Shown piece by piece: positions 115-34,643 of a DNA stretch of 35,137 nucleotides; position 1 is the first letter of the stretch; the number at the start of each line of letters is the position of its first letter. The translations under genes were made by a program, and so were the position numbers. Location of the stretch: IMG/VR virus record IMGVR_UViG_3300030202_000906, positions 1 to 35,137 of that record; one strand, written 5' to 3'. Under the pieces are notes generated by a model. The model saw nothing but the letters and a program-made list of their open reading frames with translations. It was not told the DNA's origin and ran no database searches. Source of the DNA: a virus.

Positions 115-1260
115 TTAGATACCAGCTTGCGCCATGCTTTTTCTTACACGGTTGTTTCTATCTTCATCTTTAAACCAATGCACATATTGTTTTTTAGTAA
201 ATTCTACTGATTCATGGCCTAATAGTTGGCTAACAATATAATAATCACCTTCAAATTTATCGAACAATATAGAAGCAAAAAAGTGTCTAAGGTCATGCCA
301 AGTAAAAGCATCGACACTACTTTTTTTAATAGCATTTTTTAATTTAGTACGAAATGTTTTGCCAGATATTGGCATATTATTTCTATTACTAAATACATAA
401 CTATTTTCTTTTGGCATGCCACGTTTTAACTTTTCTTCTTTTAAGGCTTTAGATAAATCTTCGCTCATAGGTATTTCACGAAAAGAACCTTTAGTTTTTG
501 GTACACCAATTTCTTCACCATGTTTAGCAACCTTAACAGCTTTAGATATTTTTATTGTTCCTGCATTAAAGTCAACATCATTCCAAGTTAATGCTCTTTG
601 TTCTCCTTGACGCATACCTGTAGCTATTGCTGTGTAATATAATAATTTAAAATCATTATCTATATTAGAACGTACGCTATGTATAATTTTTGGATTAAGA
701 CGTGTAGCCTTCATGTCCTCATTATAATCTTGTGGCTTTTCTATCTTTGCTGTTTCTAAAGGATTGCTTTTTATATAAGCGCACTCAACAAAGTATTTAA
801 ACATTTGTTTAAAATGCTGTAAATAGTTTTGCCTAGTCTTAACACTTGTCTTGCCACCTGCATGCCTATTAATAGACATAGGCCCATTAAAAATGTCTCT
901 AGTAATTGTTTTGGGGGTTCTTAAAGGTGGGTAAATTAGTTCGCCTAAATCCCAATCTGCAAATTTAGTACCTGCAATTTGTGTTTCTAATAACAATGCA
1001 GCTGATGCTAATTTATGTTTTCTTTCTGATTCACCAATAGCTTCTCTAGTAGTCTGTTCTTCTATCCATTGGTTTAATGCTTCTTGACCAGTTACTCTAT
1101 GATTAAGAGGTACATAGTTTTGTTCTAAGTGTTGCTCCCATAATTTCTTTGCTTCAAGTTGAGCAACTTTTTTATCTTTATATGCTTTGCGACCTGCTTT
1201 TATTTTTCTTGCATCTACTATATAAAGTTTATTCTTTTTATCATGTATTATGTTTAACAT
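115..1260 (-). CDS. int: Tyrosine-recombinase integrase
   Basis: Site-specific recombinase that would insert and excise the phage at a host tRNA-Asn gene. The C-terminal catalytic domain shows the family residues in order: R in GMRQGEQRAL (R217 in a 381-residue numbering), HDLRH (H322, R325), LLGH (H349) and the nucleophile in KKQYVHW (Y359). The N-terminal part (about residues 60-170) fits a SAM-like core-binding domain, and the first 40 residues fit an AP2-like arm-binding domain. I prefer the ATG at 1260, which follows GAAGGG by 8 nt; an ATG 12 codons upstream (1296) is also open but lacks a clear ribosome site. The attachment site with arm repeats lies immediately upstream, as in typical integrase-attP modules. 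The gene reads leftward and is the last minus-strand gene seen. Confidence 0.95.
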   Translation of the reverse strand: MLNIIHDKKNKLYIVDARKIKAGRKAYKDKKVAQLEAKKLWEQHLEQNYVPLNHRVTGQEALNQWIEEQTTREAIGESERKHKLASAALLLETQIAGTKFADWDLGELIYPPLRTPKTITRDIFNGPMSINRHAGGKTSVKTRQNYLQHFKQMFKYFVECAYIKSNPLETAKIEKPQDYNEDMKATRLNPKIIHSVRSNIDNDFKLLYYTAIATGMRQGEQRALTWNDVDFNAGTIKISKAVKVAKHGEEIGVPKTKGSFREIPMSEDLSKALKEEKLKRGMPKENSYVFSNRNNMPISGKTFRTKLKNAIKKSSVDAFTWHDLRHFFASILFDKFEGDYYIVSQLLGHESVEFTKKQYVHWFKDEDRNNRVRKSMAQAGI

Positions 1261-1351
1261 TATTTTGACCCTTCTGTTATTGATTATAAAAATCATTTAT
1301 ACTATTAATATAATGACTTTTAATGTCAATTACAAGGGGTCGAATTAAAAA

Positions 1352-30889: not shown

Positions 30890-31294
30890 CTAACTCTTTT
30901 TAAGGTGGTAATAAAGGCGAATGAGTGCTTGCTCATATCGCCTTTTTACTGTCCGTCTGTCGCATCTGTAATGCTTTGCTAGTTTTAACCATGCAATGCC
31001 TCTAACTCTAAATACAGACGTACTAGCCACCTTCCATATGAGTTGATTGTCGTCTCTGTCTATTTCTAGCCCTACGGCAAGGGCAAACTCAAGGCGTGTT
31101 ACTTGGTTGGTTGTTGGTGTAATCCTAACCATGCCAATATTATGATAGTTGTAGACATCCCAATGACTCTGCACCGTATCTGGCCAATAATTGAGCTTCT
31201 GCTTTTTTAGTGCGCTAGGTAACAAAGCAAGGGTTTGTGCTGCTTCTTTGTAAAGTTCGTCAAGATCGGTTATGCTCCAATTATCTCTATTCAT
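30890..31294 (-). CDS. DUF6362-like putative regulator (sigma-like HTH)
   Basis: 134 residues matching the DUF6362 pattern of alphaproteobacterial phages. The N-terminal half has LYKEAAQTLALLPSALKKQ, then a conserved YWPDTVQSHWDVYN. The C-terminal half is a sigma-region-4-like helix-turn-helix (RVRGIAWLKLAKHYRCDRRT-VKRRYEQALIRLYYHL). Such proteins probably control transcription, possibly as late activators. It is the last gene of the leftward early operon and lies directly behind the 14-bp iteron array and the strong promoter at 31732-31761. The exact function is inferred. Confidence 0.78.
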   Translation of the reverse strand: MNRDNWSITDLDELYKEAAQTLALLPSALKKQKLNYWPDTVQSHWDVYNYHNIGMVRITPTTNQVTRLEFALAVGLEIDRDDNQLIWKVASTSVFRVRGIAWLKLAKHYRCDRRTVKRRYEQALIRLYYHLKKS

Positions 31295-31941: not shown

Positions 31942-32147
31942 TTGCCATCCATCCTACGTTTATAGCTATCCCACCATGCCGCCATGTTAGCCACTACAAC
32001 AATCCAACTGCTGCTGGTTTTTGTTTTACAAAAGTCTCGCATAATATCCTGGGGGTTTGCTCCGCTCTTAACTAATCTCCGGGCTTCGTTTAATGCCCCT
32101 TCAAGCGAATCTAATTCTTGCAGCGCTTTTAGTTGTTGATTATTCAT
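31938..32147 (-). CDS. Unknown early protein (69 aa)
   Basis: 69 residues with a helical N-terminus (QLKALQELDSLEGALNEARR), then VKSGANPQDIMRDFCKTKTS and a Trp-rich end (NMAAWWDSYKRRM). The start overlaps the 3' ends of both methyltransferase frames, and the stop overlaps the Cys4 gene (ATGA). No family recognised. Position between the methyltransferase and the zinc-ribbon gene in a coupled operon supports a real gene. Confidence 0.65.
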   Translation of the reverse strand: MNNQQLKALQELDSLEGALNEARRLVKSGANPQDIMRDFCKTKTSSSWIVVVANMAAWWDSYKRRMDGK

Positions 32148-33243
32148 CGATCTTCCTCAATGATGATGGCTCTGGCGATTTGTGCGATGACTTGGGGGAC
32201 AACCGCGTTGCCGAGGGCTTTGAGCCTTTGCGTTCTTCCAACTTGATGTGTTGTAACTCTTGGGATGTCAGGTTCGTGTAACCAGAAGGGAACCCCATCA
32301 ACCATTCCACCCAATCCGCGTTCAATGCTCCCTTTGTAATGTTTATTTCTTTTGTCTTGTTTTTTATTATGTCTTTCGCCACCGCACTCGCTGTCGTTTC
32401 CTGATGCCCATTCGTGTTTGCTAGTTTTTCTATTTTTCCTGTATCTTTGTAACCTCTCGCTGCTGGTGTTGGCCACATCTGCTTCTCCTCGTAATCCACC
32501 GCATCCTTCAACTTCACTCCCCAACGTACTCCTTTCTTGTTCTTGCGGCTGTAATTCCCGTTCTGTTTCTCCACTCCTTTGGCTACTGCTCCTTCCGTAT
32601 CGCTCACTCTCGGTGTTGGCCACATCTGTTGATGCTCCACCACATCGTTCAGACTGGCTCCGTATTTTACTTTGCTTCCTTGTCTGATTTTGCTCCACCC
32701 TGTCTTTGTTTTTACTACTCTCTTGCCTTCTGCTCCTTGGTAATCTCTTGCTTTTGGTGTTGGCCACGATGAAAAGTCTTTGCCTTCTATGCGGGGCGTC
32801 AACGGCCACAGCTCCCAATACAAACGTCTGCCAGGAGTAACCTTCACTTTCCAAGTCAAATAACACTTGGTCGAGGCCCAAGTTGACATGACCAGGCACG
32901 TTCTCGCAAAGTACCCAAGTGGGTCTTTTGTGCTTAATAATTTCAAACATTCTCGGCCAGAGGTGGCGGTCATCTTCTGTGCCTTTTTGCTTCCCGGCAA
33001 CGGAGAAGGGCTGACAGGGATATCCTCCGCAGATAAGGTCGATGTCTCCGCAACTGTTTGGATCGAAGGTTTTGACATCTCCCCAAATAGGAACATCTGG
33101 CCAATGTCGTCTGAGTATGTGTTGGCAGAAGGGTTCGTATTCAACGAACTGGATTGTTTCAAATCTTCCTGTGCTTTCCAATCCGAGGTCGATACCTCCG
33201 ATGCCTGCAAAGAGGGAGAGGACTTTGAGTTTTTCTTTTTCAT
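32140..33243 (-). CDS. Overlapping-frame protein of the WPTP/LMGFP family (alternative frame of the methyltransferase)
   Basis: A 367-residue frame, same strand and +1 relative to the methyltransferase, open for its entire length. The first 90 residues are Ser/Pro/Thr-rich. Then TATSGRECLKLL, STWASTKCYLTWKVKVTPGR-RLYWELWPLTPRIEG and the first WPTP (160-163) appear. WPTP recurs at 208-211 and 257-260, each followed by a (K)ARD-like motif; the second and third are preceded by a VKYGASLNDVVE/VRWGVKLKDAVD-type module. The C-terminus has LNADWVEWLMGFPSGYTNL. I recognise this as a conserved protein family commonly annotated beside or within phage cytosine methyltransferases; the function is unknown to me. 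Start ATG 33243 uses the same AGAGAGGA site as the methyltransferase. It is not a random shadow frame. Confidence 0.72.
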   Translation of the reverse strand: MKKKNSKSSPSLQASEVSTSDWKAQEDLKQSSSLNTNPSANTYSDDIGQMFLFGEMSKPSIQTVAETSTLSAEDIPVSPSPLPGSKKAQKMTATSGRECLKLLSTKDPLGYFARTCLVMSTWASTKCYLTWKVKVTPGRRLYWELWPLTPRIEGKDFSSWPTPKARDYQGAEGKRVVKTKTGWSKIRQGSKVKYGASLNDVVEHQQMWPTPRVSDTEGAVAKGVEKQNGNYSRKNKKGVRWGVKLKDAVDYEEKQMWPTPAARGYKDTGKIEKLANTNGHQETTASAVAKDIIKNKTKEINITKGALNADWVEWLMGFPSGYTNLTSQELQHIKLEERKGSKPSATRLSPKSSHKSPEPSSLRKIDE

Positions 33244-33253
33244 TCAAGGACAC
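32144..33253 (-). CDS. DNA cytosine-5 methyltransferase
   Basis: 369 residues if read from GTG 33253 (TTG at 33247 has a better-spaced AGAGAGGA site). It transfers a methyl group from SAM to C5 of cytosine. Motifs: I LSLFAGIGGIDLGLE; IV GGYPCQPFSVAG with catalytic C80; VI CENVPG (117-120 region); VIII HRRQRLFIVANT (about 155-166); and X ALGNAVVPQVIAQ near the end. The region between VIII and X (about 165-315), where the target-recognition domain normally sits, is charged and Ser/Gln/Arg-rich with repeated VANTxSxR (163, 211, 260), and does not resemble a classical TRD. It overlaps the VRR-NUC gene by 10 nt. It may protect phage DNA from host restriction. Confidence 0.9.
   Translation of the reverse strand: MSLNEKEKLKVLSLFAGIGGIDLGLESTGRFETIQFVEYEPFCQHILRRHWPDVPIWGDVKTFDPNSCGDIDLICGGYPCQPFSVAGKQKGTEDDRHLWPRMFEIIKHKRPTWVLCENVPGHVNLGLDQVLFDLESEGYSWQTFVLGAVAVDAPHRRQRLFIVANTKSKRLPRSRRQESSKNKDRVEQNQTRKQSKIRSQSERCGGASTDVANTESERYGRSSSQRSGETERELQPQEQERSTLGSEVEGCGGLRGEADVANTSSERLQRYRKNRKTSKHEWASGNDSECGGERHNKKQDKRNKHYKGSIERGLGGMVDGVPFWLHEPDIPRVTTHQVGRTQRLKALGNAVVPQVIAQIARAIIIEEDR
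32465..32770. repeat. Triplicated DNA repeat GGTGTTGGCCACATCTG inside the methyltransferase
   Basis: The plus-strand 17-mer GGTGTTGGCCACATCTG occurs at 32465-32481 and 32612-32628, and its first 12 bases plus GAT at 32756-32770, spaced 147 and 144 bp. In one frame it encodes VAN(T); in the overlapping frame it encodes WPTP. The region between copies is also repetitive in the second frame, so the unit is about 48-49 codons long. Confidence 0.75.
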
Positions 33254-33645
33254 ATCCTCTCTATAATCTGCATACGAGGGTTATCTTTTAATTCCACTAA
33301 TGTATTGAGCCACAGCTTTACTTGTTGCAGGCTGTAACACGTTTCAATATGTTCACCCGTCATAAGCAAACACCGCTTTATTGCTTTCTGATTCTCCGTC
33401 ATGCGCCCTTTCTTGGCTTTGAGTTCTATAAATATCCCAGCTTTCTCTAACGGATGCAGCCAGCTTTCCTTCGGCACAAAGATCTCAATGTCTGGCCAAC
33501 CGCTCGCCATACCCATAGCCTTTAACTTGCGCCTAAACGCAACATGCCTTACGCCCTCATTAGGCGAATGATGATAGATAGAGTTATCTGGCAGGGCTAT
33601 TTCTAACCATTGAATGACATACTTCTGTAAATCATCCTCTAACAT
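33244..33645 (-). CDS. VRR-NUC domain nuclease
   Basis: 133 residues with the VRR-NUC (PD-(D/E)xK) pattern: an N-terminal Glu (MLEDDLQKYVIQWLE), a YHHSPNEG motif, GWPDIEIFVP (D52) and IFIELKAKKG (E74, K76) followed by MTENQ (Q86). These stand-alone domains cut DNA, often at branched structures. The gene starts directly after the cro-like stop with no gap and overlaps the methyltransferase start, so these three are co-translated. It may act in replication/recombination; a restriction-like pairing with the methyltransferase is possible but not shown. Confidence 0.88.
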   Translation of the reverse strand: MLEDDLQKYVIQWLEIALPDNSIYHHSPNEGVRHVAFRRKLKAMGMASGWPDIEIFVPKESWLHPLEKAGIFIELKAKKGRMTENQKAIKRCLLMTGEHIETCYSLQQVKLWLNTLVELKDNPRMQIIERMCP

Positions 33646-33956: not shown

Positions 33957-34643
33957 ATGATTAAATATAAAAATATGGGTTTAATAAATATAAAAAAGTA
34001 TATGAAAAAAGCAGGGCTTCAAAGCAAAGAAGTGGCGGATCGTATGGGTGTGCGTGCGGAAACTATAAGCCGATGGGTTTCTGGAACTAATAACCCAGGC
34101 TTGGAACAAGCAGAAGAATTAGCAGACATATTAGGTGTAAGTATATCTGATATATTGTTTAAACAAAAAGGTATGTTGATTGCTGGCACAAGAGATTTTC
34201 ATGGCAATGCAACATTTTATAACGCAATGGACAAACAAAGATATTTACCAATATTAGGAATGGATGTTCCAGAACATAGATTTTGTTTAGAATTAGAAAC
34301 ACATCGACAAGAGGATAAACATAGTTATGACACTTTTAGTAATGTGCATATATTAAATAAAATAGTTAGCACAAGTTGTTATACTATGCGTAGTTTAGTA
34401 AAAATTACACATGGCCCTCAAGAATTTATAAGTAAAATTATACAAGGCGTTGTTTTTCCTATGCCAACTAAAGAATTAGTTAAAGGTAAATTATTTTACA
34501 ACATACAAAGACCAGAAACAAAAGACATTATAACAAATGTGCAATTAGAATGGGCCACACCTTTAATAAGTCGTTTTTACAATAGAAATCACTCAGAAAT
34601 GTTAGACCTTAGTAATGCAAACAACCAAGATTTAAATTTATAA
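33957..34643 (+). CDS. HTH repressor (CI-like position)
   Basis: 228 residues. An XRE-type HTH covers about residues 13-66 (KKYMKKAGLQSKEVADRMGV, then RAETISRWVSG and EQAEELADILGVSISDILF). The C-terminal domain (70-228) shows no LexA/CI S24 catalytic Ser or Lys signature that I can identify; its CLELE-like strands and VKITHGPQEFISKIIQGVVF segment could be a diverged dimerisation fold. The ATG follows AAAAGGG by 8 nt, behind the 33871-33899 promoter. It probably maintains lysogeny by binding the TGAC palindromes. The lack of the usual self-cleavage residues suggests another induction route. Confidence 0.8.
   Translation: MIKYKNMGLINIKKYMKKAGLQSKEVADRMGVRAETISRWVSGTNNPGLEQAEELADILGVSISDILFKQKGMLIAGTRDFHGNATFYNAMDKQRYLPILGMDVPEHRFCLELETHRQEDKHSYDTFSNVHILNKIVSTSCYTMRSLVKITHGPQEFISKIIQGVVFPMPTKELVKGKLFYNIQRPETKDIITNVQLEWATPLISRFYNRNHSEMLDLSNANNQDLNL

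Follow-up and report, generated by a model that had tools for sequence, protein, structure and literature searches.

The stretch of DNA analysed here, referred to as the window, is the whole of the 35,137-base virus record IMGVR_UViG_3300030202_000906. Given an integrase, a CI-like repressor, terminase and capsid genes, the record most likely represents a temperate tailed phage. Its minus strand carries the gene for the catalytic subunit of an m5C DNA methyltransferase (alpha) and, offset from it by +1, a second open frame (beta), as summarized in Table 1. An initial annotation, made from the DNA letters alone, had described these two same-strand frames as open over nearly the same interval, and this description holds. 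The overlap covers approximately 365 common codons, or about 99%, and the two frames end 4 nt apart. The ATG of beta abuts the stop codon of the upstream VRR-NUC nuclease gene (TGAATG), and a Shine-Dalgarno-like sequence is placed where either frame could use it; for alpha, the in-frame TTG at 33247 is better spaced from this sequence than the GTG at 33253.

Table 1. Features of the window, with emphasis on the alpha/beta locus
Feature	Position	Strand	Basis or remark
Integrase	115-1296		
DUF6362 protein	30890-31294		
VRR-NUC nuclease, upstream of alpha	33244-33645		
CI-like repressor	33957-34643		
Shine-Dalgarno-like AGAGAGG, usable by alpha (TTG 33247 or GTG 33253) and beta (ATG 33243)	33256..33262	(-)	sequence
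Alpha ORF, m5C DNA methyltransferase catalytic subunit, 369 aa, GTG start	32144..33253	(-)	PF00145
Alpha motif I, LFAGIGG	33194..33214	(-)	alpha alignment
Alpha motif IV, catalytic PCQPF	33005..33019	(-)	alpha alignment
Alpha motif VI, ENV	32897..32905	(-)	alpha alignment
Alpha motif VIII, HRRQR	32777..32791	(-)	alpha alignment
Alpha linker, motifs VIII to X	32300..32758	(-)	38% charged, 15% hydrophobic; free of stops, evolves at the rate of beta
Alpha motif X, RLKALGNAVVPQV	32189..32227	(-)	alpha alignment
Beta ORF, +1 frame of alpha, 367 aa, ATG start	32140..33243	(-)	phrog_1008, E 1.6e-29
Beta residues 1-49, N-terminal extension peculiar to the window subfamily	33097..33243	(-)	start weakly constrained
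Beta core, residues 88-152, AQKMTATSGRECLKLL...STKCYLTWKVKVTPGRRLYWEL	32788..32982	(-)	overprinted on alpha motifs IV-VIII
Beta module 1, WPTPKARDYQGAEG..., 48 aa	32623..32766	(-)	putative target-recognition module
Beta module 2, WPTPRVSDTEGAVAKGVEKQNGNYSRKNKKGVRWGVKLKDAV..., 49 aa	32476..32622	(-)	
Beta module 3, WPTPAARGYKDTGKIEKLA..., 50 aa	32326..32475	(-)	
Beta motif IX equivalent, LNADWVEWLMGFPSGYT	32275..32325	(-)	missing from alpha

Alpha matches PF00145 (E 6.7e-50) and contains motifs I, IV (PCQ), VI (ENV), VIII and X in one chain, with motif columns that are invariant in an alignment of 17 alpha sequences; the initial annotation had assigned these motifs to the same frame. Alpha lacks motif IX and, unlike a complete m5C enzyme, does not combine its catalytic motifs with a recognition region and motif IX in one polypeptide. 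The charged, low-complexity character ascribed to the segment between motifs VIII and X is borne out by its composition (Table 1), and its substitution pattern fits. This linker looks unfolded. The alpha linkers of the window (32758-32300) and of its relatives contain VANT or VADT repeats, which are the WPTP motifs of beta read in the alpha frame and can be used as a quick sign of a hidden beta.

The sequence elements originally quoted for beta (TATSGRECL, STKCYLTWKVKVTP, three WPTP repeats and LNADWVEWLMGFPSGYTNL) are all present. Residues 65-329 of beta match the phage "DNA methyltransferase" family phrog_1008 (model positions 35-285 of 329), and sequence searches of Pfam, NCBIfam and PDB returned no match. 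The protein is composed of a conserved core (TSG...LTWK..TP.GR...L), followed by a row of WPTP modules of approximately 30-55 residues each (three in the window, 1-6 in relatives) and a C-terminal segment, LNPxWVEWLMGYPxGWT, whose spacing matches motif IX as it is known from m5C enzymes, for instance KLTPRECWRLQGFPD of Javan6. When beta was aligned by hhalign to the canonical enzymes of Javan6 and KP27, the best alignments fell on motif IX, with E values (0.5-0.7) that are not significant on their own. AlphaFold models of beta alone were of low confidence, both for the window protein with 101 sequences (pLDDT 62, pTM 0.29) and for a minimal one-module beta (pLDDT 61, pTM 0.28), and a Foldseek search with the low-confidence window model found no structural relative. 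Because these models are poor, the target-recognition fold of beta remains inferred. Poor models of beta by itself would be unsurprising in a subunit whose folding takes place on its partner.

Selection on both frames and conservation of the nesting

Several lines of evidence demonstrate that the second frame is not a by-product of the first. When the window locus was shuffled with the alpha protein and codon usage fixed, beta was open in none of 2000 shuffles, which contained 8.7 stops on average; the third frame over the same locus contains 26 stops. The initial annotation had named frequent second-frame stops in homologues as a refuting observation. The beta frame is free of stops in all of 139 loci made non-redundant at 65% alpha identity, although 4.4 per locus would be expected. 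In the mirror shuffle, with the beta protein fixed, the alpha linker was free of stops in 81 loci, where 4.2 were expected, which shows that selection also keeps alpha open.

Conservation of beta beyond the level forced by alpha, another check that the initial annotation had proposed, was assessed with a held-out beta profile built without relatives of at least 50% alpha identity, using as null the betas implied by synonymous alpha shuffles. The window beta reached 286 bits, whereas the null betas averaged 105 and did not exceed 152; results for 14 further loci pointed in the same direction. Since the null mean of 105 bits indicates that alpha forces part of the similarity among betas, simple conservation of beta would have been misleading. 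Phage N15, K1ind3 and three E. coli prophages likewise have beta profile scores above every null. For N15 (L352), the score belongs to an unannotated 242-aa beta nested in gene 58 and amounts to 105 bits, with a null maximum of 65.

Synonymous rates, compared at alpha codons for the same amino acid within those clusters of relatives in which comparison was possible, add to this evidence. Alpha synonymous differences are about 0.35-0.63 outside the overlap, before and after beta, and about 0.14-0.31 inside it; in one closely related cluster the corresponding values are 0.15-0.21 and 0.02. Inside the overlap, the rate thus falls to between less than half and about two thirds of its outside level. 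In the linker of the window subfamily, alpha codon position 1, the wobble position of beta, changes approximately 2-4 times as often as positions 2 and 3 (0.13, 0.15 and 0.24 vs 0.04-0.07), implying that selection in this region is for the beta protein and that alpha is only kept free of stops. At the N-terminus of the same subfamily, the alpha wobble position varies most. Thus, the conservation of beta far exceeds what alpha dictates in both profile nulls and synonymous rates, and both frames of the window are under selection; neither of the refuting outcomes named in the initial annotation was observed. The initial annotation had gone further and held that the second frame is translated as well; this part was overstated, and in the absence of proteomic or ribosome-profiling data the translation of beta is still an inference.

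The nested arrangement is widely conserved. Among the viral loci picked by the alpha alignment alone (best 80 hits), a +1-nested beta was observed in 78 of 78, and picking by beta recovered +1-nested alpha/beta pairs in 127/129 viral and 77/78 genomic loci; some of the viral loci share a contig. Over the 285 viral and genomic loci combined, all but three keep the +1 nesting, and beta was not found apart from alpha among the loci surveyed. According to their record titles, the genomic loci belong to Bacillota, Pseudomonadota, Bacteroidota, Chlorobiota, Chloroflexota, Acidobacteriota, Desulfobacterota and other phyla; in a sample of Pseudomonadota, phrog_1008 was detected in 24 of 398 genomes, and the +1 nesting holds at almost every one of these loci. 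The more distant phage methyltransferases of Javan6 and KP27 lack beta and are of the usual single-chain type.

Existing records treat these loci unevenly. Both frames are annotated in Paenibacillus larvae phages, and beta appears as "g62 internal gene" in phage Lily and as "Mte8-like protein" in Escherichia phage K1ind3. The records of phage N15 (gene 58), of several E. coli prophages and of a Klebsiella plasmid prophage annotate alpha alone and leave out the beta that is present. At positions 1046-2215 of the E. coli cS100a locus (L351), RefSeq splits the methyltransferase into two incomplete pseudogene fragments, yet both frames are intact there, with 404 aa for alpha and 343 aa for beta.

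Placement of motifs IX and X and the nature of the enzyme

The function of beta is best approached through the distribution of motifs among its relatives. The single-chain enzyme of Mycobacterium phage Moonbeam contains, in frame and flanked by motifs VIII and X, a segment corresponding to the beta modules plus motif IX, and hhalign places the beta segment on this enzyme with a probability of 94.7 and an E value of 5.6e-8. In two viral contigs, L026 (2784-4203) and L052 (2787-4359), alpha ends just past motif VIII, and one beta ORF contains the modules, motif IX and motif X, with an overlap of 335 nt remaining. Phages Kampy, Gmala1 and Abidatro have a similar layout, in which motif X also belongs to the beta ORF. 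Motif X is part of the AdoMet-binding half of m5C enzymes. Forms that carry it in beta are therefore intelligible only with alpha and beta working as a single enzyme, and the system is best explained as a two-subunit methyltransferase with a nested second gene.

It is thus very probable that the locus encodes a two-subunit phage m5C methyltransferase resembling M.EcoHK31I, with both subunits read from one stretch of DNA in two frames, although translation of beta and assembly of the subunits are inferred. In the proposed mechanism, alpha would provide AdoMet binding and catalysis through motifs I-VIII and X, lacking a target-recognition domain and motif IX, and beta, from the +1 frame, would add the conserved core, motif IX and, in a row between them, exchangeable WPTP modules for target recognition. 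Assembled, the pair would form an active enzyme in which beta chooses the DNA sequence, and a likely use would be to mark the DNA of the phage itself against host restriction. In the absence of activity data, it is an inference that the enzyme is active, that the modules select its target sequence and that phage DNA is protected. The initial suggestion that the second protein supplies the missing target-recognition part has become the best-supported mechanism through the placement of motifs IX and X and the in-frame segment of Moonbeam; recognition as such is inferred.

Other readings of beta have to be weighed against a two-subunit enzyme. That the second frame is open only through the first frame and base composition, with nothing encoded, fits the share of the profile similarity that is imposed by alpha (null mean 105 bits), but the shuffle, profile and synonymous-rate tests exclude this reading for the window and most of the relatives tested, leaving it next to no credence. 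A translated and selected beta that is no enzyme subunit, for instance an anti-restriction or regulatory protein, is improbable. Such a protein would be compatible with the core (residues 88-152), for which no known enzyme part was matched in Pfam, NCBIfam or PDB; it is opposed by the presence in beta of the motif IX that alpha lacks, the in-frame module and IX segment of the Moonbeam single-chain methyltransferase, the fusion of motif X to beta in L026, L052, Kampy, Gmala1 and Abidatro, and the failure to find beta apart from alpha among the surveyed loci. Still harder to sustain is a +1 ribosomal frameshift after motif VIII that joins alpha to the beta modules and motif IX and leaves beta without a start of its own. 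The first WPTP module does start immediately after motif VIII, where a +1 shift would yield the canonical order of motifs I-VIII, recognition region and IX. However, the fused product would be without motif X, the alpha ORFs of L026 and L052 reach only just past motif VIII, and conservation of the beta core, which precedes the shift point, exceeds the alpha-forced level; in L026 the core scores 122.7 bits against a null maximum of 95.3.

Start sites also speak against a frameshift, since internal Shine-Dalgarno and ATG sites are enriched: the beta of most relatives has an internal start within alpha, frequently preceded by a Shine-Dalgarno site of its own (AAGGAG...ATG), and a Shine-Dalgarno sequence (at least 5 nt) before the beta ATG is found in 50% of 126 loci, compared with 17.5% of nulls. 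The near-common start of the two frames reported in the initial annotation is real in the window but is limited to its subfamily, in which beta starts at the start of alpha and a Shine-Dalgarno-like match precedes the beta ATG in all 12 of 12 members. Even there, beta might instead start at Met50, with the near-total overlap amounting to an open but unread extension. This possibility is unlikely and yet deserves to be kept in mind: Met50 coincides with the position of the beta start in distant relatives, and the first ~17 codons of the extension are so weakly constrained (synonymous differences 0.09-0.36) that a Met50 start cannot be excluded. In favor of ATG 33243, the upstream match is present throughout the subfamily, Met50 has no clear Shine-Dalgarno, and codons 21-50 of the extension show fewer synonymous differences (0.05-0.20).

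Some single-chain enzymes also have an ORF in the +1 frame. Moonbeam (L341, 2095-2628) and Papez (L342, 2236-2556) have motifs IX and X in frame, as are the modules in the Moonbeam enzyme, yet a +1 ORF similar to the beta core is present in each. These core-only ORFs were not counted towards an independent core, their similarity being at best marginally above the alpha-forced level (P 0.003 and 0.047), and neither were the ORFs of Gmala1, Abidatro and Vibrio phage 1.003.O (P 0.16, 0.25 and 0.10).

Known split enzymes and exchange of recognition modules

Natural m5C methyltransferases made of two polypeptides include M.EcoHK31I and M.EaeI. The small subunit of M.EcoHK31I was reportedly found by Lee, Kam and Shaw in 1995 to be read from an alternative frame inside the large gene, with both subunits needed for methylation. 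The window shares the alternative-frame arrangement, with its probable second subunit nested in the +1 frame of the first and both frames under selection. In M.EcoHK31I (YGGCCR), the larger polypeptide contains motifs I-VIII and X, the smaller one contains motif IX, and the predicted recognition domain has been placed in the larger subunit (PMC3404938). Alpha and beta of the window divide the motifs in the same manner, but the recognition part appears to reside in the beta modules. Unlike M.EcoHK31I, the window subfamily has a beta that starts at the start of alpha and ends within 4 nt of it (~99% overlap), and the window beta carries three WPTP modules (1-6 in relatives) of a kind exchanged between phages. 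By analogy, the system may be said to work like M.EcoHK31I in architecture, and membership by sequence is not claimed. M.AquI (CYCGRG) is another split m5C enzyme, in which the second polypeptide provides the distal recognition region, motif IX and motif X (PMC3404938). Here, too, two polypeptides would form one m5C enzyme, the second with the recognition region and motif IX; in the window, unlike M.AquI, motif X stays in alpha, whereas L026, L052 and Kampy do match the M.AquI distribution. The multispecific Bacillus phage enzymes M.SPRI and M.phi3TI have several short recognition modules in a row between motifs VIII and IX. Their modules belong to the frame of a single enzyme, whereas those of the window are located in a second frame and on a separate subunit.

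The phage "DNA methyltransferase" families phrog_1008 and phrog_363 are the same families as beta and alpha, and some records annotate the overlapping genes; however, no function or dual-coding analysis is attached to these families or to the Lily and K1ind3 records, and many records list alpha only. Long same-strand overlaps that are kept over long evolution are rare in bacteria and dsDNA phages. The view of the initial annotation that the system may be under-described is accurate for the wide nesting, for which no prior description was found in the open-access literature, but it has to be qualified, considering that M.EcoHK31I is known and that an "internal gene" is annotated in some phage records. 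As far as the open-access literature shows, the extent of the nesting, selection on both sides, the near-total overlap in the window subfamily, the second-frame modules and their exchange are new.

If the proposed reading is correct, many entries named "DNA cytosine methyltransferase" describe half an enzyme, annotations having missed beta. It is also predicted that cloning alpha with recoded codons destroys beta and yields an inactive enzyme. The chances are about even that, in a family spread over many bacterial phyla, the second frame of the catalytic gene houses recognition modules which are swapped as dual-coded cassettes, so that phages could rapidly alter their methylation targets or gain new ones through a product that annotations often omit. 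Such exchange would make it possible to test directly how sequence choice in m5C methyltransferases depends on recognition modules.

The exchange itself is directly observed, as modules are swapped like cassettes between phages; their role in recognition is inferred. Any piece that is exchanged must remain free of stops in both frames. The window and four relatives (L008, L009, L010 and L012) have catalytic DNA that is 96-97% identical, and their rows of modules differ in number and kind (three in the window vs five, three, four and three, respectively). Conversely, modules more than 90% identical in DNA occur in loci whose catalytic regions are less than 80% identical, often elsewhere in the row. 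For example, module 2 of 2 in L063 and module 4 of 4 in L172 are 99.2% identical, and the catalytic regions of these two loci are 76.6% identical.
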